Made by a program: the position numbers and the translations under genes. A model generated the notes under the pieces. The model was not told the DNA's origin and made no database searches. It was given only the letters and a program-made list of their open reading frames with translations. Shown here piece by piece: positions 48,787 to 60,515 of a DNA stretch of 64,000 nt (the first letter of the stretch is position 1; each line of letters starts with the position of its first letter). This DNA comes from Pseudobdellovibrionaceae bacterium (GTDB taxonomy: Bacteria; Bdellovibrionota; Bdellovibrionia; Bdellovibrionales; UBA1609): assembly GCA_947444305.1 (NCBI GenBank), contig CANEZP010000013.1, forward strand, positions 1 to 64,000, in the 5' to 3' direction.

Positions 48787-49947
48787 TTCAACTTCGAAGT
48801 GCAACGCCTAAATCCAAGCTCTACATATTAAGTTTATAAGTAAGTTCATTAGCCGTTTGATAACCTAGAACTTTCTTAGGCGTAGAGTTCAACCTTTTCT
48901 CCAAAGAAGCAATTTGCTTTTGCGTGACGTTGCGGAAATCCGTTCCTTTTGGATACGTGCGACGAATGACTCCGTTAGCATTTTCGATTGAGCCTCGTTC
49001 AAAAGATGCGTACGGATTTGAGAAGTATACTTTCACGCCCATTTGTTTTGTAAGATCGACGTGGCAGCTAAATTCACGGGCGTTATCTAAAGTTAAAGTT
49101 TTCGGTTTCGGCATTCGCTTCATCGCTCGGAGAAACGCATCTCTAACTGAATTCCGGTCCCGCTTCGCTAGCAGTTCAATCGCAATTTGTCTCGAGACGC
49201 GGTCAACAACGGTGAGTAAATAGCTCTCACTTTTGCTTCCTACAATTAGATCACCTTCGAGATCTCCGAGCCGTCTTCGAGCGTTAACGACAGCGGGTCG
49301 TTGTTCAATTCCAACTCTTTTAGGAATAAGTTCTCGGTTATAATTTCTTTCCGAAATTCGATTTTTCCTTTTGCCAAATCTAGTCAACGACCGATAAATT
49401 TTTCCACCTTTTTTCTTGTCTGCGATAATCATGCGGTAAACGGATTCGTGGCTGATTGATTTGGTGCATTCTTGCTTCGACCTGCCAGCAACTTGATCGG
49501 GCGTCCAGCCGGCTCGTAATTGCTTGAAAACCCAAAGCCGTGTTGCCGTGGGGATCTTCGTTCGCTTGACTGATTTTTTCGCTTTGAATTTAGCTTTCTT
49601 TTCGGCGTACTTAGATTCATATCGAATTGTCTTTTCAATATTTGATTGATTCTTAATTTCGGCATAACGATCGAGCAATCCCAGCTCTAGGAAAAGTTTT
49701 TTCTTGTAGGTGATATCACGAACAATCTTTTGCCCGTTTCGACGTATTTCCCGACTGATCGTCGATTTATCAACACCAATTACTTTTGCAATCTGCGATA
49801 AACTGAAACTGTGGGATTTCATTTTTCCGATCTTCACGCGATCGCGCTTCGATAAGTGGCGATAATGTTTCATGACTAGCTGCATATCAAATTCCTCCGA
49901 GTTCTCAAAACCCGCTCAGAGCGAAATCGTTGCACTTCGAAGTTGAA
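48787..49947 (-). mobile_element. IS30-family insertion sequence, 1161 bp
   Basis: Terminal inverted repeats TTCAACTTCGAAGTGCAACG at 48787-48806 and its exact complement at 49928-49947 (20 of 20 bases), with a TTCGAA core. They enclose one complete transposase gene. No target-site duplication is evident in the immediate flanks (GGG versus GAA). The gene is intact, so the element may still be active. Confidence 0.9.
48821..49885 (-). CDS. IS30-family transposase
   Basis: 354 residues. The N-terminal helix-turn-helix (residues 6-55: YRHLSKRDRVKIGKMKSHSF, IAKVIGVDKSTISREIRRNG) is that of IS30. The catalytic DDE core has D in LGDLEGDLIVG, D in LTLDNAREF and E in YASFERGSIENANGVIRR, with the PKGTDF block typical of the family. 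Full length and lies wholly inside the 20-bp inverted repeats. Confidence 0.95.
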   Translation of the reverse strand: MQLVMKHYRHLSKRDRVKIGKMKSHSFSLSQIAKVIGVDKSTISREIRRNGQKIVRDITYKKKLFLELGLLDRYAEIKNQSNIEKTIRYESKYAEKKAKFKAKKSVKRTKIPTATRLWVFKQLRAGWTPDQVAGRSKQECTKSISHESVYRMIIADKKKGGKIYRSLTRFGKRKNRISERNYNRELIPKRVGIEQRPAVVNARRRLGDLEGDLIVGSKSESYLLTVVDRVSRQIAIELLAKRDRNSVRDAFLRAMKRMPKPKTLTLDNAREFSCHVDLTKQMGVKVYFSNPYASFERGSIENANGVIRRTYPKGTDFRNVTQKQIASLEKRLNSTPKKVLGYQTANELTYKLNM

Positions 49948-49993: not shown

Positions 49994-50533
49994 GTGCTAA
50001 ATGATTTCATGGCGAAACGGCGGGCGCAGCAAGAGTTTGTAGGCAGAGGTTTTGGGCGTGCTGCCGATAGTTTCGGTGGGGCGTCGCTTAAGGGAAATCC
50101 TAAAGGTAAACGTCCCTTGGATTCGAAATTTCCGATTCATTTAACTTTGCGTGCGACGAAAAGTGTTTTGCGATTGCCAAAGAATTTTCGGTTGGTTGAA
50201 TCGTTGGTTTCCGAAGTCGCGCGTAAGCACGGTGTGAAGATCTACAAATGGGCTAACGTGGGTAATCATTTGCACCTGGTAATTAAAATTTTGCACGTGA
50301 GGCGATGGGCTGCATTTATTCGTGAGTTGACCGGCCGGCTTGGGTTGGCGCTGCGGTCCTCTTTAGCCGGTGAAAAGCTTTGGCTGTTTAGGCCGCATAC
50401 GCGGATCGTTCGTGGGTGGAAGAAAGCGTACGGTACGGTCAAAAAGTACGTCGAACTAAATATCTTGGAAGGTGAAAACCTTATTTCGCGGTGGGATGGG
50501 AAAAGGACAAATGCCGGTAGGCCGCCAAGTTAA
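49994..50533 (+). CDS. Y1 (REP-associated type) tyrosine transposase
   Basis: A GTG at 49994 or ATG at 50009 starts a basic protein of about 175-179 residues. Landmarks of the Y1/IS200-like fold in its REP-associated (RAYT) branch: FPIHLTLRATKS, the metal-binding HUH-type motif GNHLHLVIKI, and the catalytic Tyr in TVKKYVELNIL. No left and right IS ends are visible, as expected for single-copy RAYTs that act on REP palindromes. It lies 47 bp from the IS30 element and about 1.5 kb from the palindrome-rich tRNA mosaic. Confidence 0.75.
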   Translation: MLNDFMAKRRAQQEFVGRGFGRAADSFGGASLKGNPKGKRPLDSKFPIHLTLRATKSVLRLPKNFRLVESLVSEVARKHGVKIYKWANVGNHLHLVIKILHVRRWAAFIRELTGRLGLALRSSLAGEKLWLFRPHTRIVRGWKKAYGTVKKYVELNILEGENLISRWDGKRTNAGRPPS

Positions 50534-51619: not shown

Positions 51620-52759
51620 ATGATGAAATCCCCGGGGTCGTTCTTTTCAAAATTAAAGCTAAGCATTGGATTAGCTTCGTGTCTCTTCGTCGTCCTTGGA
51701 TGCAACTCAAATTTTTTATCCGCTAAGCCCGAGCTCTCCCTTACCGCCACCGGTTCCGAAAAAACATTCTTAGAAAAACTCTACAAGTCGAACACTTTGT
51801 TGTTCTGGTTCAACGGTGAAGAAGCCGCAACGACCCTCGAGGCGGATACCCTCAAAAATCATAATAGCGAATTTTTCGCGGACGTTGAATTCGTTGCGGG
51901 CACCCCGGGCATCCTCGATAAAGTCAGCGTACCAAAAACCATTTCGATCAAACCTGACGCGAACAAACTAGGGCTTTACTCCAGCCCCGACGTGGACATC
52001 CGGCTTCAAGAAACAACAATCGCGATGGTTTTGAAACCTACCGCGGGCAACGTCTTTTCCTTCGATCCGTTCGATCAAAGTAACGAGGCCTTGGTACTTT
52101 CTTACTCCGCCGCCACGGGCTTCACCGGAAGTTTTTTTACTTCGCCGTCGGATTATTACGCGGCAAAAGTGCCGACGACGTACTCGGATTACGTTTTGGT
52201 TACTCTCACGCTGACGAAATCGGCGTCCGCGCCGATGATCATGACCGTGAACGGCAAAGTGGCCCAAGCAAAAGCCGAGGGAACCACGGCCCTGCCCTCG
52301 CTGGTCAACCGCACTCTGTTCCTGGGTCCCGATATCGCAGCACCGCTAAACGTGAAAGACTTCGCAGTTTTTCGCCGTGAACTTTCGCTTTCCGAACTCG
52401 GTGCCGTCATACGCCAAATGGCGGAACGAAACTCGCTCGCCGGCGTATCGACCGATGCGTCGCTCGCGTGGACCGGAAGCCTGACCGATACCGGGCCGAT
52501 CGACCCTGCGTTTGCCGAAGCTAAGGCGATCATCGCTACCAAGTGCGCGAGCTGCCACACGCACGGCGCATGGGTCGGCAAAAACGCGCAGTACTTCAAA
52601 ACGGAAAACTTAGTCGTCGCCAAAGATCCTGAGAATTCACGTCTGTACTACCGCATTACGGGTAGCACCGGCGCGAACGGTCCGAAGAATATGCCGGCGA
52701 GCGGAACCATCACGGGTGCCGAAGCCGACAAAATCAAAGAGTGGATAAATAGCCTATGA
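51620..52759 (+). CDS. c-type heme lipoprotein with LamG-like region
   Basis: Signal ending CLFVVLGCNSN (lipoprotein Cys at about residue 28). Residues 55-270 have the strand pattern and ...DFAVFRRELSLSELGAVIRQ ending of LamG/concanavalin-like modules. Residues 300-379 form a mono-heme cytochrome c: IIATKCASCHTHGAWVG (CxxCH) and KNMPASGTIT giving the axial Met. It would carry electrons or act as a redox anchor on the outer membrane. First gene of a four-gene operon; its stop overlaps the next start by 4 bp. Confidence 0.75.
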   Translation: MMKSPGSFFSKLKLSIGLASCLFVVLGCNSNFLSAKPELSLTATGSEKTFLEKLYKSNTLLFWFNGEEAATTLEADTLKNHNSEFFADVEFVAGTPGILDKVSVPKTISIKPDANKLGLYSSPDVDIRLQETTIAMVLKPTAGNVFSFDPFDQSNEALVLSYSAATGFTGSFFTSPSDYYAAKVPTTYSDYVLVTLTLTKSASAPMIMTVNGKVAQAKAEGTTALPSLVNRTLFLGPDIAAPLNVKDFAVFRRELSLSELGAVIRQMAERNSLAGVSTDASLAWTGSLTDTGPIDPAFAEAKAIIATKCASCHTHGAWVGKNAQYFKTENLVVAKDPENSRLYYRITGSTGANGPKNMPASGTITGAEADKIKEWINSL

Positions 52760-54351
52760 TTAAATATCTCATCGCGATGCTCATGATACCGGCCGCGGTC
52801 CAAGCCAAACCCTTGGACGAAAACGCGTTTCTCAATCGGTGCTACGCGCACCTTACCGGTCGTAGCCTGCGGCTTGATCACGTCTATCGCACGCAAGTAA
52901 AGAACGGCACGAAGACGGCGCTGCAAATCTGTGATTCACTCATCGACCAAAGTGTTCTCAATAAAACGGATTACAAAACTCCGACCTCAGCGGGCGCCGA
53001 AGGTTTGCAAGTTCTTCGCAATTTTTACGACTTCCATCGCACTTGGTTTGATTCGAACGTCTTCGAACAGATGCAAGGGAGTAACTACCGCCACCTTTAC
53101 GGCACCTACGATAATTTCGATTCGACCGAACCTGCCCTATCGCTTACGTACAATCTTTTTGCGCCGGCGGACCTCAACGTTCCTTACAAACAAGTGATTC
53201 AAGGTAAGGCCGGTTACTACGCATTGCGCGAGCTAGACCCGGTCGTGAACGCACGCGCCGCTTTTCCCGATTTCACTTTGGCCTCGCGCAAAGAAGGCGC
53301 CGGATACAATCTGTCGGTGGCGCAAATTATGGTGCGCGTACCGGGCATCGGATTTAAAAGAGCCGATAGCTTAAATTCAAGCTTCGTTCAGGTTCCGCAA
53401 CCGATACAGATCGGTGAACTCGTCGGAATAAAGCCGGACACTCGCTCACTCAACATAACGAATTACGCCCCCTACATTGCCCGTCACAAGATTCCGTTCG
53501 CGTTGAACGCCTTGAATCTAGAAGCGGCCTCGACGACGCCCGACATGGTTCCGGGGATCAATATCTATGAGAACCAGGGCAGCGGGATCCTCGGCATGAA
53601 TTCCTTTATCTTCCTGAACTGGGGTCACGACCCGGGCGTTCTATTGAATGGTGCCGAGAAAATGTCGCGACGCTGGAGCCAAGCTTTTATGAAGTCGATG
53701 CTCTGCCGCGAACTTCCCTTACTTCGGCAGAGTGACGTCGGCGCGTACGTTTCGACCGATACCGACCCGAAGGTAGCGCCCTTTCGTAAATCAACGACGT
53801 GCTTAACTTGCCACGCGACGGCCGATCAGTTGTCGGCGGCGGCACGTAACATTCTGATCAGCAATTCCGAGGCGGATTACGCGTTCTTTACGAACCCGGA
53901 CAACTCAAAAACCCCGAAGGTTACGCAAGTCATCGGCCGCTTCAACGCAACGAACGCCACCGGGTACCGCTGGCCCGCAATGGCCGAAGCCAACTACCAT
54001 AAGCAGACGCCGAACGGCGTACTCATGTTCCGTTCGGCTTCCGGCAAGCTTGTCGAGCGTGAGATCACCGGGATCACCGGCGTCGGCGATATCATCGCGA
54101 ACGAAGTCGATATCTACCAATGTGCGGCCAAGCGTTACCTTAATTACTTTACCGGCCTGGATATAGATATTTACGACCCGGGTGACCCAGCGAACGCCGC
54201 GAAGATTAACGGCGAAGATATCGCGACCAAGAAATTACGCAAGCTTGTGCAAACGCTCGGCACGAACTTGCAAACGACGCAGTCTTTAAGAACGATGATG
54301 AAAGAACTCATGCGCACGGAATATTACCGTGACGAAAATTACCTTCAGTAA
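52756..54351 (+). CDS. Secreted mono-heme c-type protein of a planctomycete-cytochrome-like group
   Basis: Signal peptide (IKYLIAMLMIPAAVQA). The protein opens with ENAFLNRCYAHLTGRSLRLD and ends LRTMMKELMRTEYYRDENY, both like the helical ends of DUF1549/DUF1592-type proteins. One heme site, TTCLTCHATADQLS, lies at about residue 350, after TDTDPKVAPFRK. The rest is mixed alpha/beta with an FIFLNWGHDPG loop. It overlaps the heme lipoprotein gene by 4 bp and is followed 9 bp later by a DUF1501-like gene; that pairing is known from other phyla. Family placement is inference from the pattern. Confidence 0.55.
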   Translation: MIKYLIAMLMIPAAVQAKPLDENAFLNRCYAHLTGRSLRLDHVYRTQVKNGTKTALQICDSLIDQSVLNKTDYKTPTSAGAEGLQVLRNFYDFHRTWFDSNVFEQMQGSNYRHLYGTYDNFDSTEPALSLTYNLFAPADLNVPYKQVIQGKAGYYALRELDPVVNARAAFPDFTLASRKEGAGYNLSVAQIMVRVPGIGFKRADSLNSSFVQVPQPIQIGELVGIKPDTRSLNITNYAPYIARHKIPFALNALNLEAASTTPDMVPGINIYENQGSGILGMNSFIFLNWGHDPGVLLNGAEKMSRRWSQAFMKSMLCRELPLLRQSDVGAYVSTDTDPKVAPFRKSTTCLTCHATADQLSAAARNILISNSEADYAFFTNPDNSKTPKVTQVIGRFNATNATGYRWPAMAEANYHKQTPNGVLMFRSASGKLVEREITGITGVGDIIANEVDIYQCAAKRYLNYFTGLDIDIYDPGDPANAAKINGEDIATKKLRKLVQTLGTNLQTTQSLRTMMKELMRTEYYRDENYLQ

Positions 54352-54360
54352 GGAACGACC

Positions 54361-56010
54361 ATGCGCAAGAATAACCGCCGCAATTTTTTGAAAGCCGCCG
54401 GAATCGTCGGCGCCGGAGCCGGCGCCGCTATGCTGCCGGAAAATCTTTTGTTCAACGCCCTGCTCGGGGATCTGTTCACCCAGTCCACCGCCCACGCCGC
54501 GGACTTACTGAGCCCGCGCAACTACATCAATATTAGCTTAGGTGGCGGGCCTATCCGTTACGCTTTTGACCACTGGCTTAAAACCGCCCCGAACGAACCG
54601 GCGATGATCCACTCATCCCATAACTCGACCGGCTTTAATTACGATTCGGCCATGAAAGTGACCGGCAGCGAGTACAAAACGTTCGAGTACAAAGGCTATT
54701 TGGTCCCGAGCTTTTTTCTCGGCTTCCCGACGGCACAACGAAATAAGTTTTTAGATTCTTTCTTAATGATTCGCGGTTACGGCACGGGTATCGACGGTCA
54801 CGGTGTGAACAGCGATTTGCAAAAACATCCGTTAGCTAGCGCGCCTTCAATCACGGGCTTAATGGCTGATCATTCGAACCGGACTTTTCAGGCGGTCCAA
54901 TATCCACCCATGAATAGCCCTTTCTCCGCCCGCTCGAGCGCAACTTTAAATGCGCTGTCGGGTTCGACGCCGCTAAAATCTTTGCTTAGTCCCCTAACTT
55001 CGACGAAGCGGGTAAGAAATCTTTCGCGCTCGATGCCGACGGCTTTCGACGATGTTCGCCGCGCATTGAATTCCATCAACGAACCGGCTGCCTCGGTTAA
55101 GATTGCGAAAGCGAGTTTAAATAATACCTACTCGTTATTGAAGAGCAGCCTAACTGATTTCGATACGCAGTGGCCGCTCTTACTCGCGAAATATCAAACG
55201 GCCATCGTCAATGCGATGAAGGATCAATTCATCCCCGGGCTAAACGCCACCGAAGACGGCAGCCGGCAGATCTCTTACCTGACCAACCAAACGGACATCG
55301 GCTTCGATACGGGCGGCGCGGACGGCTTTATCAACGCAAACAGCAACCTTTGCGCCCTCGGTGAATTCGTTACGGCTTCACCGCTCGCGGCCGGCCTCGC
55401 GCTGGCCGAGTATTGTATTAAGAATAAACTCGTTTCGGCGTTCGAGATCGGCGCCGGCGTCGGGCAAGACGGTTTAAATTTGGCCGCCGGAAACGGCAAA
55501 TCGCTGTTTAGCTCGAGCAACGACAATCACGGCGGCGGCGGTCACGTCGACTTCGTCGCCAAATCGCTTTATTTTCGGGGCATCGTCGCCGGCCTGCTGA
55601 CTTTGCAAACCGAACTCGAAGCGACCAACGACTGGCAAAATACGATCGTGCACCTCGTTTCCGAATTCAACCGCACCATCGGCCGAAGCAACGGCGGCTC
55701 GGGGCACGGAACCGAACAAATGGTTTCGTCGGTTTTCTCGGGCGTGTTCACGGGTGGTCCGTACGTCGTCGGTAACGTCGGCACGAGCGGCGATCTCCTT
55801 AAAGGTGCACCCACGCAAGGTATTGCGCTCCCTATCAGTAATTACAACGTCAGTGACCGGCCCACGCCGATCATGATGACTTCGACCGTAGCCGAACTCA
55901 TGGGTGTTTCGTACAACCCATGGCGCAACTTTCAGGCGCCGTTGATCACGCTCTCGGGCGGCCGCCTGACCTTGCCCTTCGGCCGGGGAAAGATGTCGGT
56001 GATTTCATGA
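54361..56010 (+). CDS. Tat-exported DUF1501-like protein
   Basis: 549 residues. The N-terminus NRRNFLKAAGIVGAGAGAAM is a Tat signal (RRxFLK), so it is exported folded, possibly with a cofactor. The body shows DUF1501 traits: an early LGGGPIRYAFDHW block, FRGIVAGLLTLQTELEATND, and GGSGHGTEQMVSSVFSGVFT followed by GGPYVVGN where DUF1501 has DHG...GG.v.GG...G. His-rich GGGGHVDF could bind metal. Such alkaline-phosphatase-fold proteins usually accompany heme-containing DUF1549/1592 partners, as here. Ribosome site AAGGAA overlaps the preceding stop. Confidence 0.65.
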   Translation: MRKNNRRNFLKAAGIVGAGAGAAMLPENLLFNALLGDLFTQSTAHAADLLSPRNYINISLGGGPIRYAFDHWLKTAPNEPAMIHSSHNSTGFNYDSAMKVTGSEYKTFEYKGYLVPSFFLGFPTAQRNKFLDSFLMIRGYGTGIDGHGVNSDLQKHPLASAPSITGLMADHSNRTFQAVQYPPMNSPFSARSSATLNALSGSTPLKSLLSPLTSTKRVRNLSRSMPTAFDDVRRALNSINEPAASVKIAKASLNNTYSLLKSSLTDFDTQWPLLLAKYQTAIVNAMKDQFIPGLNATEDGSRQISYLTNQTDIGFDTGGADGFINANSNLCALGEFVTASPLAAGLALAEYCIKNKLVSAFEIGAGVGQDGLNLAAGNGKSLFSSSNDNHGGGGHVDFVAKSLYFRGIVAGLLTLQTELEATNDWQNTIVHLVSEFNRTIGRSNGGSGHGTEQMVSSVFSGVFTGGPYVVGNVGTSGDLLKGAPTQGIALPISNYNVSDRPTPIMMTSTVAELMGVSYNPWRNFQAPLITLSGGRLTLPFGRGKMSVIS

Positions 56011-56735
56011 GTAACGTTTTAAAACTTTTGTTCGCGCTGACGATCGTTTCGCTCATCGGTTGTTTACCGACCGGCAGCGGGACGCACGAAAATGCATCGG
56101 ACTTGCCGTCGGTATCGCCGGGCGGTAGCGGCGGCGACTCGAACGTGGCTCCGTTGCCCGATCTCCCCGATACGCTCGAAAAAACGAAGGTGCTCTACAC
56201 CGGACAAATGATGGGCCGGGAATTCGTCGCGTCCATGTTGCGGGAAATTTTTGGTTCGTCGACTTACGTCGTCGGTGCCGAGATCGCGGCCTTCGACACG
56301 ATTCTACGCAGCATAGAAGAAGAGCCGACCGTCTACGGAAGGGCTTGTAACGTCTATTCGTCCTTCTCCGGTCTTGACTGCGGAGACTCGCTGATTACTT
56401 CGTCGTCCTCTTCGATGATGCCCGTGTCCACGATCGTTCGTCAGATGAACAAACTGACCGCTTGCGAATCGATCGTCGAGCGTACCGCGCTCATGAAAGC
56501 CGCCGCCGAGAAGATACCCGGTGGTTTGACCGGCGCGAACCTTTCGGTCTTGGACCGCGCGAAGATAGAAAATTTGTATCGCCTCTTTTATCGCGCACGT
56601 GAACCACGCGCGACCGAGATCGACGCGATCAACAAATTTTCGACCGAACTGAAAAACGGCGGCGCGACGACTGAGAATCAATGGCGGGGTGTCTTGCAAA
56701 TCATTTGTGAACAGCCGGGCTGGGAAGCCGTCTAA
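56007..56735 (+). CDS. Lipoprotein, last gene of the c-heme/DUF1501 operon
   Basis: The ATG at 56007 overlaps the previous stop (ATGA). 242 residues: lipobox IVSLIGCLP (Cys at about 19), a Gly/Ser/Pro-rich linker to residue 50, then a helical domain (MMGREFVASMLREIFGSSTY ...) that resembles the helical start or end of DUF1592-like proteins. Two Cys pairs (RACNVYSS...LDCGD, TACESI...IICEQ). Probably an outer-membrane-tethered partner of the operon's other products. Confidence 0.65.
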   Translation: MSNVLKLLFALTIVSLIGCLPTGSGTHENASDLPSVSPGGSGGDSNVAPLPDLPDTLEKTKVLYTGQMMGREFVASMLREIFGSSTYVVGAEIAAFDTILRSIEEEPTVYGRACNVYSSFSGLDCGDSLITSSSSSMMPVSTIVRQMNKLTACESIVERTALMKAAAEKIPGGLTGANLSVLDRAKIENLYRLFYRAREPRATEIDAINKFSTELKNGGATTENQWRGVLQIICEQPGWEAV

Positions 56736-57459: not shown

Positions 57460-58971
57460 ATGCCCTTGGATTGTCTCGACATAATGAAGGAAGCAAATCG
57501 GTTGATTCGCGCCGGGCAGAGGCACGAAGCTATTCGCTCGCTCACCAATTTCCCGCTTATTAAAGTTCCACGACGGCATCTTCTTGAATTTGCAAACTTA
57601 GCGCGCCGGACCGGATTATTTCACATCGGCCTGCGCGCGCTGCAACCGTTAGTCCGGCCTAAAGGCAAAACTAAACCGAAGGCAAACGCGGCGGAATCTG
57701 CCGCCTACGCTATGCTCCTTTCAAAAATCGGAGCGCGAAGCGAAGCACGCCGCTTACTGGAAAGCCACGACGACAAGTTACCGGAGAAACATCTTTACCT
57801 CGGTTTTATTAGCATGGCGAGCTGGGACTACGAAGCGGCGGCCGTCCACTTAACTAACTACCTCTCGCTCAATCATGGTTCGCCTTACGATCGCATGGTT
57901 GCCGAAGTAAACCTCATCGCTTCGCTCGTCACCCTCGGGAACGAAAACGCGAGCGTTCGGATCGAGGCGGCTTTAGCGCAATCGTCCGAAGCGGGATGGA
58001 CTTTACTCGAACAAAATTTGACCGAACTTAAAGTGCAGATGCTGGTCGCGCAGAAAAAATGGCACGAGTCTTTCGAACATCTCGATCGTTTAGCGACACG
58101 ACGGGATCCCCAAAACTCAAACTACCAGATCTTTAACAAAAAATGGATGGCACTTGCCAAACTTCAGGAGCTTGGACCGACCGCCGAAACCATTAGCGGA
58201 TTAGCCGAAGTCAGCCGGATTGCCGCCGCCGAACAACACTGGGAGACCGTTCGCGATTGCGCTTACCAAGAAAGTTTGGCGACCCGCAACCGGGAACTTT
58301 TCTTGCGCGTTTACTTCGGCACCCCTCTCGCCGCCTTCCGCTCGCGTATGAAAACAGCCGCCCGCGAGTGGATCCAATTGCCGGCCGCGCATGAAATCTA
58401 TTTTGGTGATCACTCGGTCGCGGCCAGAAGCTTTAATCTGTGGACCGGTGAAGAATCCGGGGCGAAGGTTCAGCTTAAGGCCGGCAAAGCAATGCACAAA
58501 ATCTTGGCCGCGCTCTTCAAGGACTTATACCGTCCAAAAATGATCGGTGATCTTTTCGCCGAGGTCTATCCCGGCGAATATTTTGATCCACAAACTTCGG
58601 CGTTAAAAATATCGCAGCTCGTATTCCGTCTTCGCAAATGGGTCGAGCAAAACGCCGTTCCGATCACGGTCGAAGTAAAGGACGAGCTTTACCAAGTTCA
58701 CGTCCACGGCGATTACAAACTCATCGTTCACGCCGAAGCGCCCATCGCGGAGTCCGCCTCGGGCAAATACACGAATCAAATTTTGTTATTGAAACTCCAG
58801 CGTGAATGGCAGCGTGATATCTTCTCGACCCGTGAGGCTTGCAATTTACTCAGCCTATCGCCGCGGACGTTGCAGAATATTTTTGACGTCGCTCTTCGCA
58901 ACAACATGATCGAAAAAATCGGCCAGGGCGCCGCAACCAGATATAGATTCACCGACGAGGTTGCCGTATGA
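57460..58971 (+). CDS. TPR-type protein with C-terminal winged helices, likely transcriptional regulator
   Basis: About 503 residues. Residues 1-300 are helical repeats (ANRLIRAGQRHEAIRSLTNF, ARSEARRLLESHDDKL, WTLLEQNLTELKVQMLVAQK). Residues about 350-425 resemble an OmpR-type winged helix (MHKILAALFKDLYRPKMIGD, LFAEVYPGEYFDPQ, KISQLVFRLRKWVEQN). The last 60 residues are a second helix-turn-helix (LLKLQREWQRDIFSTREACN, LLSLSPRTLQNIFDVALRNN). No signal peptide. The start codon of the FGE-like lipoprotein gene overlaps its stop, so it may control or respond to that gene's product. An in-frame GTG lies at 57442. Confidence 0.65.
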   Translation: MPLDCLDIMKEANRLIRAGQRHEAIRSLTNFPLIKVPRRHLLEFANLARRTGLFHIGLRALQPLVRPKGKTKPKANAAESAAYAMLLSKIGARSEARRLLESHDDKLPEKHLYLGFISMASWDYEAAAVHLTNYLSLNHGSPYDRMVAEVNLIASLVTLGNENASVRIEAALAQSSEAGWTLLEQNLTELKVQMLVAQKKWHESFEHLDRLATRRDPQNSNYQIFNKKWMALAKLQELGPTAETISGLAEVSRIAAAEQHWETVRDCAYQESLATRNRELFLRVYFGTPLAAFRSRMKTAAREWIQLPAAHEIYFGDHSVAARSFNLWTGEESGAKVQLKAGKAMHKILAALFKDLYRPKMIGDLFAEVYPGEYFDPQTSALKISQLVFRLRKWVEQNAVPITVEVKDELYQVHVHGDYKLIVHAEAPIAESASGKYTNQILLLKLQREWQRDIFSTREACNLLSLSPRTLQNIFDVALRNNMIEKIGQGAATRYRFTDEVAV

Positions 58972-60515
58972 AACAGAGTCTGCGCAAAAACCGCTTCTCG
59001 ACCTTGATGATCGTTTCGCTTTCCATGATCGTTTTGTTCCAGAACTGTTCCTGGATGCAAAAACCGGTAAGCTTCGGGACCGATTCGAACGCTTCTACTT
59101 TGCGCCAGTCGGGTAACGGCGACAGTTACGAAGGCAAACCCGAACCGGGCTTATACTTTCGCAGCATTCCCCTGAGCGCGTGCCAAGGCAGCCGCGCCAA
59201 AGATTATTCGGGTAAAATCACGGTCGATGATTCAAAGATAACGTTAGAGCAACAGAGCGAAGCCGACTGTGAAATGAAAACTTCGGAAATTGCTTTCGCG
59301 GAAGTTGAGGCCGGCCCGCGCTCTTTAGGTCTACTCGCGCACAAACAAGGCGTGTTCGAAAAACGAAACTCGCCTCCCCGTCAGCAAGATTTGGACAATA
59401 ATTTTGTTGAAGCTTGGTGCCGTACCGCCTTCGATGACCAAAGCACGCAGCGTACCGACATCACGATCTCGACGAATCCCGTGAGCCGAAAAACGCGCGC
59501 ACGAATTATTATCGGAGAAAAGAAGAACGGCCGCTGGGCCTTAACCGAAGATGAACGCGCAGATATCTCGCGTGAAGTAGGCGGTCAAAACGTTGCCTAC
59601 GGTCACGGCGACCTAAGTTTATCGATGAGTACGCAACGGGACGGCCTTAAGCCGCTCAACGGACATTTCACCGGCAACATCGGCGGCCAGGTGGTCGACG
59701 TACCGGTGATTTGTGAATCGGCGGGCCTAATGGACATCAAGACCTCGCCCGCCCCGCCCGTTTGCCCGGCCGACTTCGTTCCCGTGCCGGCACTTGCATC
59801 TTACACATCGTTTGGTTTTTGCGTCGCCAAGTACGAGGCTCGCCAAGCCGGAGTACGCGCATCGCTCGACCCTGTCGCAACACCTTGGGTTTCGTTGAAC
59901 CGCGCGCAAGCCGCCGAAGCTTGTAAGGCCAATGGAAGCGGTTACGAGCTGATCCGCAATGCCGAATGGCAAAGCGTCGCCCGCGAAATCGAAAGAGTAC
60001 CCGGTAACTGGAGCGGCGGTGCCGTGGGAACCGGATCTTTGAATACCGGTCATAGTGATGCCGCACCCAATTTCGTGCTTGCGGCGACGGCCGATGATGC
60101 CGATTCATGTTTTGCCACAGGGCAATCGTGCACTTCGGGAATTTGGAATTCACAGCGACGCACGCACCGGCTCTCGAACGGAGAATTCATTTGGGATTTC
60201 TCGGGGAACGTTTGGGAGTGGATGCTCGACGACAGCGCGATGGCCTTTAATAATGAAGGCTACATCTCGCTCATGAATGATCAACCCGTTTACCCGTCCG
60301 GGACGAAGGCGTTGTTCGGCCCCGCGGGCAATTACGTTTCGCTCAACAGCGGGTCGTACGGTGGCCTCGGTTACGCACTTCTCACGGCTAATAATGGAAC
60401 GATCATCCGCGGCGGCTCCTTCGACGAGCGCAGCGGTATTTTCTCGGCCGATACCTGGGACAGCCCCGCGGCCGTGTGGCCTAACTCAGGCTTTCGCTGC
60501 GTCTTTCACCCTTGA
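58968..60515 (+). CDS. Lipoprotein with FGE-sulfatase (SUMF1-like) domain
   Basis: Signal ending IVLFQNCSWMQ, an 'FQNC' lipobox (Cys at about residue 26). Residues 50-245 are a beta-rich region with no named family. Residues about 265-515 form an FGE/SUMF1-like C-type-lectin fold: YELIRNAEWQSVAREIE, NGEFIWDFSGNVWEWMLDD, TIIRGGSFDERSGIFSADTW and the closing NSGFRCVFH. Catalytic Cys residues of true FGE are not apparent, so a binding or adhesion role at the cell surface is more likely than sulfatase maturation. Overlaps the regulator gene (GTATGA). Confidence 0.8.
   Translation: MKQSLRKNRFSTLMIVSLSMIVLFQNCSWMQKPVSFGTDSNASTLRQSGNGDSYEGKPEPGLYFRSIPLSACQGSRAKDYSGKITVDDSKITLEQQSEADCEMKTSEIAFAEVEAGPRSLGLLAHKQGVFEKRNSPPRQQDLDNNFVEAWCRTAFDDQSTQRTDITISTNPVSRKTRARIIIGEKKNGRWALTEDERADISREVGGQNVAYGHGDLSLSMSTQRDGLKPLNGHFTGNIGGQVVDVPVICESAGLMDIKTSPAPPVCPADFVPVPALASYTSFGFCVAKYEARQAGVRASLDPVATPWVSLNRAQAAEACKANGSGYELIRNAEWQSVAREIERVPGNWSGGAVGTGSLNTGHSDAAPNFVLAATADDADSCFATGQSCTSGIWNSQRRTHRLSNGEFIWDFSGNVWEWMLDDSAMAFNNEGYISLMNDQPVYPSGTKALFGPAGNYVSLNSGSYGGLGYALLTANNGTIIRGGSFDERSGIFSADTWDSPAAVWPNSGFRCVFHP

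Follow-up and report, generated by a model that had tools for sequence, protein, structure and literature searches.

The window analysed here is a 64,000-nucleotide stretch of contig CANEZP010000013.1 (assembly GCA_947444305.1) from a Pseudobdellovibrionaceae bacterium of the order Bdellovibrionales. It carries a compact four-gene operon, designated A to D (Table 1), which is best read as a split, putatively LamG-bearing, DUF1501-partnered variant of the known, functionally obscure PSD/PSCyt machinery. Genes A and B overlap by 4 bp (ATGA), B and C are separated by 9 bp, and C and D overlap by 4 bp, confirming the coordinates and spacing given in a first-pass annotation made from the sequence alone. 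No strong promoter or terminator beyond shuffle expectation was found inside the A–D unit. Homologues and their neighbourhoods were gathered from 141 genomes of the order, 47 of which carry C-type genes, often in several copies; across the phylum, the count is 82 of 291 genomes. At 49 of 55 C loci, B shares the strand of C and lies within 100 bp of it; a nearby D on that strand occurs at 53 of the 55. The gene order recurs in relatives across Bdellovibrionota, so the annotation is not refuted on this count, and its interpretation holds in part. The arrangement with A first, directly 5′ of B, was not seen at the other loci examined.

Table 1. Genes of the operon and other features of the window.
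Feature	Position	Strand	Description
Gene A	51620..52759	+	379 aa; lipoprotein; putative LamG/ConA-like region at the N terminus, class-I cytochrome c at the C terminus
Gene B	52756..54351	+	531 aa; Sec-exported haem protein of PSD4-PSCyt3-PSD2 type
Gene C	54361..56010	+	549 aa; Tat-exported DUF1501-type protein, predicted alkaline-phosphatase-superfamily fold
Gene D	56007..56735	+	242 aa counted from internal ATG; Cys-rich lipoprotein
IS30-like transposase ORF	48821..49885	-	upstream of the operon; possible mobility context, not part of the complex
Y1/REP-associated transposase-like ORF	49994..50533	+	own reading of the sequence; context
Lipoprotein-like ORF	58968-60515		515 aa; sub-threshold FGE-sulfatase match

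Apart from the twin-arginine translocation (Tat) model matched by C, the window proteins fall below the Pfam and NCBIfam cut-offs, so families were assigned by scanning the homologue sets. The motifs on which the first-pass annotation was built, namely two CxxCH haem motifs (CASCH in A and CLTCH in B), a Tat signal in C and two lipoboxes (in A and D), are all present and, because they are conserved across homologues, are not chance matches.

The single CLTCH of B spans residues 349–353, and the CxxCH motif is invariant in all 40 homologues; cysteines Cys29, Cys59, Cys317 and Cys456 are also invariant. Window B itself has no PSD or PSCyt Pfam match at E ≤ 1; among its homologues, PSD2 (DUF1585) is found in 27 of 40 and PSCyt3 (DUF1588) in 16 of 40. 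Alignment of the B profile with canonical DUF1592-type proteins using hhalign extended over the whole PSD4-PSCyt3-PSD2 half, with E-values of about 2.9e-14 to 8.9e-15 and a score of 125.6, whereas none of 60 column-permuted controls scored above 21.8. The conserved CxxCH falls in the PSCyt3 part. By profile alignment, B is the PSD4-PSCyt3-PSD2 half (the DUF1592/1588/1585 side) of planctomycete-type proteins. The annotation had noted that DUF1501 proteins elsewhere pair with haem-bearing DUF1549/DUF1592-type proteins; the DUF1592-type partner is present, in the form of B, whereas none of the 40 homologues of B matches DUF1549 or DUF1553. The AlphaFold2 model of B has a predicted local distance difference test (pLDDT) score of 87.5 and gave no Foldseek match in the PDB (best E 2), although it may still resemble unlisted folds. 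Sequence searches of the PDB with the C and B profiles returned nothing meaningful.

Gene A encodes a lipoprotein (lipobox VLGC, Cys28) whose CASCH motif occupies residues 309–313. The CxxCH histidine is kept in 14 of 16 homologues and the axial residue Met358 in 15 of 16, and this combination of CxxCH with a downstream axial methionine identifies a class-I cytochrome c. By comparison, no conserved methionine follows the haem motif of B among its homologues. A matches Cytochrome_CBB3 in Pfam (E 3e-5), cytochrome c is found in 13 of 16 homologues and PSCyt1 in three of 16. A LamG-like module had also been predicted, and a LamG/ConA-like N-terminal part can be discerned as a weak call: Laminin_G_3 is found in two of 16 homologues (best E 1.7e-5), and profile positions ~80–232 give sub-significant matches to ConA-like chains.

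Gene D was annotated as a lipoprotein, and its lipobox (LIGC, Cys19) has its cysteine in all 32 homologues. It proved to be more than a generic lipoprotein, since it carries a conserved domain that elsewhere is fused to cytochrome c. Cys153 and Cys234 are invariant and Cys114 is nearly so. No relative was found in Pfam, NCBIfam or PDB searches, and assignment to a known family was rejected; D represents a new lipoprotein domain rich in cysteine. Its profile gives a weak match at the position of PSD5 (DUF1595; score 20.9, against a permuted mean of 13.8, standard deviation 2.3 and maximum 19.3, and 18.8 for the reversed profile), so that identification of D as PSD5 is no more than suggestive under the permutation control.

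How these pieces belong together is indicated by gene fusions at other loci. Cytochrome c is fused to B at four loci (L123, L125, L126 and L134) and to D at three (L122, L034 and L049). Giant chains of 1330–1380 aa, composed of immunoglobulin (Ig) repeats and ending in cytochrome c plus D, adjoin B and C at L036:9323-13459, L037:755-4849 and L047:1962-5945, the first two in the window's own genus. The PSD5-bearing proteins of the phylum are one-chain proteins, and the window genome itself encodes an intact chain (L128:6321-9362) with the order Big_13 repeats, cytochrome c, PSD3 (DUF1587), PSD5, PSD4, PSCyt3, PSD2; its neighbour is a DUF1552 protein that carries a Tat-like motif. B aligns with this DUF1592-group protein over PSD4-PSCyt3-PSD2, the cytochrome of A aligns to the N-terminal cytochrome of the one-chain proteins, both systems have a neighbouring Tat-motif partner, and the N-terminal Ig repeats of the L128 protein recur in relatives of D. 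In the window, these parts do not form one polypeptide and are spread over genes A, D and B; the partner is of DUF1501 rather than DUF1552 type, an unrecognised domain (D) replaces PSD3-PSD5, and A carries the LamG/ConA-like part. The alignments, the fusions at other loci and the intact chain encoded by this genome together suggest that A, D and B are fragments of the canonical one-chain protein and that C stands in for its DUF1552 partner. For D, the place in this putative split machine is suggested by position and linkage rather than by proven homology. The window genome encodes two PSD-type proteins (G000:C23, L128:4845-9362; G000:C3, L129:7551-10844), each beside a DUF1552 protein and one with the full canonical chain.

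The annotation of C as a DUF1501-like, Tat-exported protein held up under profile comparison. Its Tat motif, NRRNFLK, begins at residue 5 and scores 21.9 bits against TIGR01409 (cut-off 16.7), and residues R6 and R7 are kept in at least 90% of 38 homologues. Window C scores 14.3 bits against DUF1501 (PF07394; E 0.023) and does not reach the gathering cut-off of 27 bits, which several homologues exceed (e.g. G091:C67, G055:C53 and G005); the family is matched by 31 of 38 homologues, with a best E of 9.5e-10. Alignment with DUF1501 proteins of the same order gave an hhalign E-value of 2.4e-17 over 115 columns, covering the C-terminal SEFxRT...G-DHG block. By profile homology, C is a divergent DUF1501-type protein.

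Two other DUF1501 arrangements offer a comparison. The DUF1501-DUF1549-type pairing absent from the window operon exists elsewhere in the same genome, in an operon of planctomycete type (G000:C10, L050:7041-11705) that encodes a DUF1501 protein, a 263-aa protein, a PSCyt2+PSCyt3 haem protein and a 374-aa protein. It likewise joins a DUF1501 partner to a haem PSD protein, but the window C and B are far diverged from it (35% over 55 aa for C) and its haem protein has two CxxCH motifs. In proteobacteria, Tat-exported DUF1501 proteins also share operons with a second conserved protein, which there is DUF1800 (PMC5122149); a DUF1800 match was found on the L050 protein, where it is very weak, and none on B.

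The predicted structure of C (pLDDT 81) suggests what such a partner may be. All 50 VIA-align matches listed for the model belong to the alkaline-phosphatase superfamily, the best being ENPP7 (Z 13.7, root-mean-square deviation 3.8 over 243 aligned residues), and Foldseek and VIA-align together point to ENPPs, PafA and sulfatases; the fold of C is thus predicted to be alkaline-phosphatase-like. Such a fold, together with the conservation of D388-x-H390 and H449 among homologues, would be compatible with C acting as a working phosphatase, sulfatase or phosphodiesterase on surface polymers, the haem proteins being separate or structural. However, the aspartate of the DHG motif is Gly448 in window C (aspartate in 29 and glycine in five of 38 homologues), the end of strand 1 reads GG/GA-P-x-R in place of the usual ligand aspartate, and no conserved Ser, Thr or Cys nucleophile is apparent among the homologues, the last two points being taken from motifs rather than from residue-level superposition. 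Because Gly448 replaces the DHG aspartate and no nucleophile is evident, ordinary hydrolase activity of C is doubtful. C is also near-obligately linked to a haem protein, and the hydrolase explanation is considered decidedly unlikely.

A second module recurs around the operon. Many loci have a YceI gene nearby together with a gene for a protein of ~390 aa with one N-terminal CxxCH, designated E: a long E is found less than 8 kb away at 23 of the 65 C loci, against 0.42 expected, and E is commoner among genomes that have C (Fisher p 4e-11, uncorrected for relatedness). The module consists of cytochrome c, YceI and E, usually with a protein F of ~210–230 aa, and occurs alone or beside the operon, as at L171:6908-9698 (G000:C2), L172:10756-12878 (G117) and L174:7185-11036 (G004). 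In G004 the two are apart, with B-C-D near 1.10 Mb and the A-YceI-E module, which includes full-length A, near 2.43 Mb; A therefore bridges the two modules.

E is reminiscent of Cyc2, a fused cytochrome-porin of which the diagnostic motif is AXPXFAR[QK][TY] upstream of CXXCH (PMC8406198). Both have one N-terminal CxxCH, ~390 aa and a barrel-like remainder, and they share the AxPxF-x7-CxxCH spacing. The motif of E, however, reads AYPxFIGYGYxSC and has no AR[QK][TY], and a 16-stranded outer-membrane barrel, as in Cyc2, is only presumed for E: a barrel composition test was weak (mean z 1.0) and no PDB profile match to a porin was obtained. NCBIfam gave no match either, which excludes a known family there. 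From this motif and spacing, E can be described only as Cyc2-like, a putative haem barrel. The retained spacing and the strong linkage of E to the operon could be taken to indicate general extracellular electron transfer through the barrel, such as Fe(II) oxidation or the reduction of metals or humics, with B-C-D as an accessory. Yet E lacks the diagnostic part of the Cyc2 motif, most B-C-D loci have no nearby E, and neither a carbohydrate-type module nor an alkaline-phosphatase-fold partner would be expected for metal redox chemistry. This explanation is regarded as very unlikely.

It is proposed instead that the operon encodes split PSD/PSCyt haem machinery with an alkaline-phosphatase-fold partner, forming an outer-membrane complex that oxidises a surface-bound polymer and passes the electrons on via c-haems, a reading to which we give roughly even chances. 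A, B, C and D would form one complex at the outer membrane, with C exported in a folded state by Tat. The LamG/ConA-like part of A, or the Ig repeats of its relatives, would hold this polymer, which is probably a glycan, for oxidation by the B/C pair, in which the c-haem of B, with no conserved distal methionine, would lie beside the metal-site fold of C. Electrons would then pass via the His/Met cytochrome of A to YceI and the Cyc2-like haem-barrel module and finally enter the respiratory chain. Several points weigh against this proposal. For A, the LamG call is a weak one, and only the lipoboxes point to an outer-membrane site for A and D. The equivalence of D with PSD3-PSD5 rests on fusion position and a weak profile match. 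The window genome has a complete cytochrome c-YceI-E set, but this lies on contig C2 and is not linked to the operon. Finally, electrons could flow in either direction.

A broader version would give Bdellovibrionota an outer-membrane redox conduit of two modules, one made up of the cytochrome lipoprotein, the YceI carrier and the Cyc2-like haem barrel, the other a split PSD/DUF1501 oxidase with an alkaline-phosphatase-like fold, which together move electrons from or to glycans of prey or environment; this version is tentative and somewhat unlikely. If true, the conduit would be a previously undescribed redox route by which a bacterial predator processes surface polymers.

Polymer oxidation and electron relay are supported by analogy, because of Cbp2D and of verrucomicrobial PSCyt genes. 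Cbp2D of Cellvibrio japonicus combines a CBM2, a YceI-like domain, FN3, c-type cytochromes and DUF1587; its X183 cytochrome reduces lytic polysaccharide monooxygenases (LPMOs), and without the cbp2D gene cells do not grow well on cellulose (PMC8981238). By analogy, Cbp2D may be the nearest experimentally studied relative of the window system, which, with its YceI-E module, shares a putative carbohydrate module, a YceI-like component and c-type cytochromes. Cbp2D differs in being a single chain with a CBM2; the portion of the account consulted mentions no DUF1501 partner, and the likeness to A and B is one of described components. In Verrucomicrobia, PSCyt genes with Laminin_G_3 or carbohydrate-binding modules lie near sulfatases, and the functions of the PSD/PSCyt/DUF1501 machinery were called entirely obscure in a 2017 survey of verrucomicrobial genomes (PMC5615132).

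The analogy with Cbp2D also lends itself to the opposite direction, a reductive supply line. Here electrons would travel outward by way of YceI, the haem barrel and cytochrome A and reach an LPMO-like copper monooxygenase outside the cell, or another acceptor, as has been proposed for Cbp2D, while B/C would serve in docking or assembly rather than as an oxidase. Secreted small LPMO_10-like proteins with a predicted mature N-terminal histidine were found at L175:7128-7622, L068:11122-11643, L176:8543-9028, L177:3475-4176, L178:4258-4800 and L179:4765-5301, most of the genes being paired with one for a ~170-aa Cys-rich lipoprotein. One is in the window genome; the one at L068 has the operon at a distance of ~3 kb and the one at L176 an A-YceI-E module at ~4 kb, which speaks for a supply line. 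On the other hand, such genes occur in only six of 140 order genomes, against 47 of 141 for C, and the idea that LPMOs generally accompany the operon was given up for this reason. The reductive supply line is judged unlikely.

The phylum is mostly predatory. A contig search with C homologues recovered relatives in named records, among them Bdellovibrio bacteriovorus kdesi and also Bdellovibrio sp. qaytius. The presence of the operon in B. bacteriovorus and in one third of order genomes, along with the variable LamG/Ig ectodomains, would suit a predation device in which the cytochrome lipoprotein binds the prey surface and the complex oxidatively damages the prey envelope. Against this, about two thirds of order genomes lack the operon, related PSD/PSCyt machinery is found in planctomycetes and verrucomicrobia, which are not predators of this kind, and a literature search gave no expression or phenotype evidence. 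That search found no paper joining DUF1501 and Bdellovibrio, and the text of a Bdellovibrio quantitative proteome does not mention cytochromes or DUF1501. Nothing in the analysis supports the prey-surface role that the annotation had suggested for its LamG-like module. A predation device is considered highly improbable.

The wider significance lies in the abundance of PSD/PSCyt/DUF1501 machinery in planctomycetes and verrucomicrobia. Its break-up into genes here shows the working parts, and fusion and linkage tie the split machinery to the cytochrome-YceI-haem-barrel route. Gene deletion is routine in the type strain of B. bacteriovorus, and because a copy sits in this genetically tractable species, the function of the whole machinery class is directly testable.

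A tree built from 53 C proteins places the window copy with G008 (100/98) and G089 (100/100), which belong to other families, rather than with its congeners, G117 and G118. This placement fits transfer within the order or old paralogy, and the operon may have been acquired horizontally. Two transposase-like open reading frames (ORFs) lie upstream (Table 1), the first of which we take to be IS30-like. The GC content of the operon is 54% against 52.6% for the window, and that of third codon positions is 0.63–0.68 against 0.61 ± 0.085; neither is anomalous, and base composition gives no sign of recent transfer. At another locus (G056:C131, L048), B-C-D is duplicated in tandem, the second copy having a B–C gap of 215 bp and an in-frame TAG marked in C. 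Downstream of the window operon, the 515-aa lipoprotein-like ORF has a sub-threshold match to FGE-sulfatase (sulfatase-modifying factor; E 0.045).

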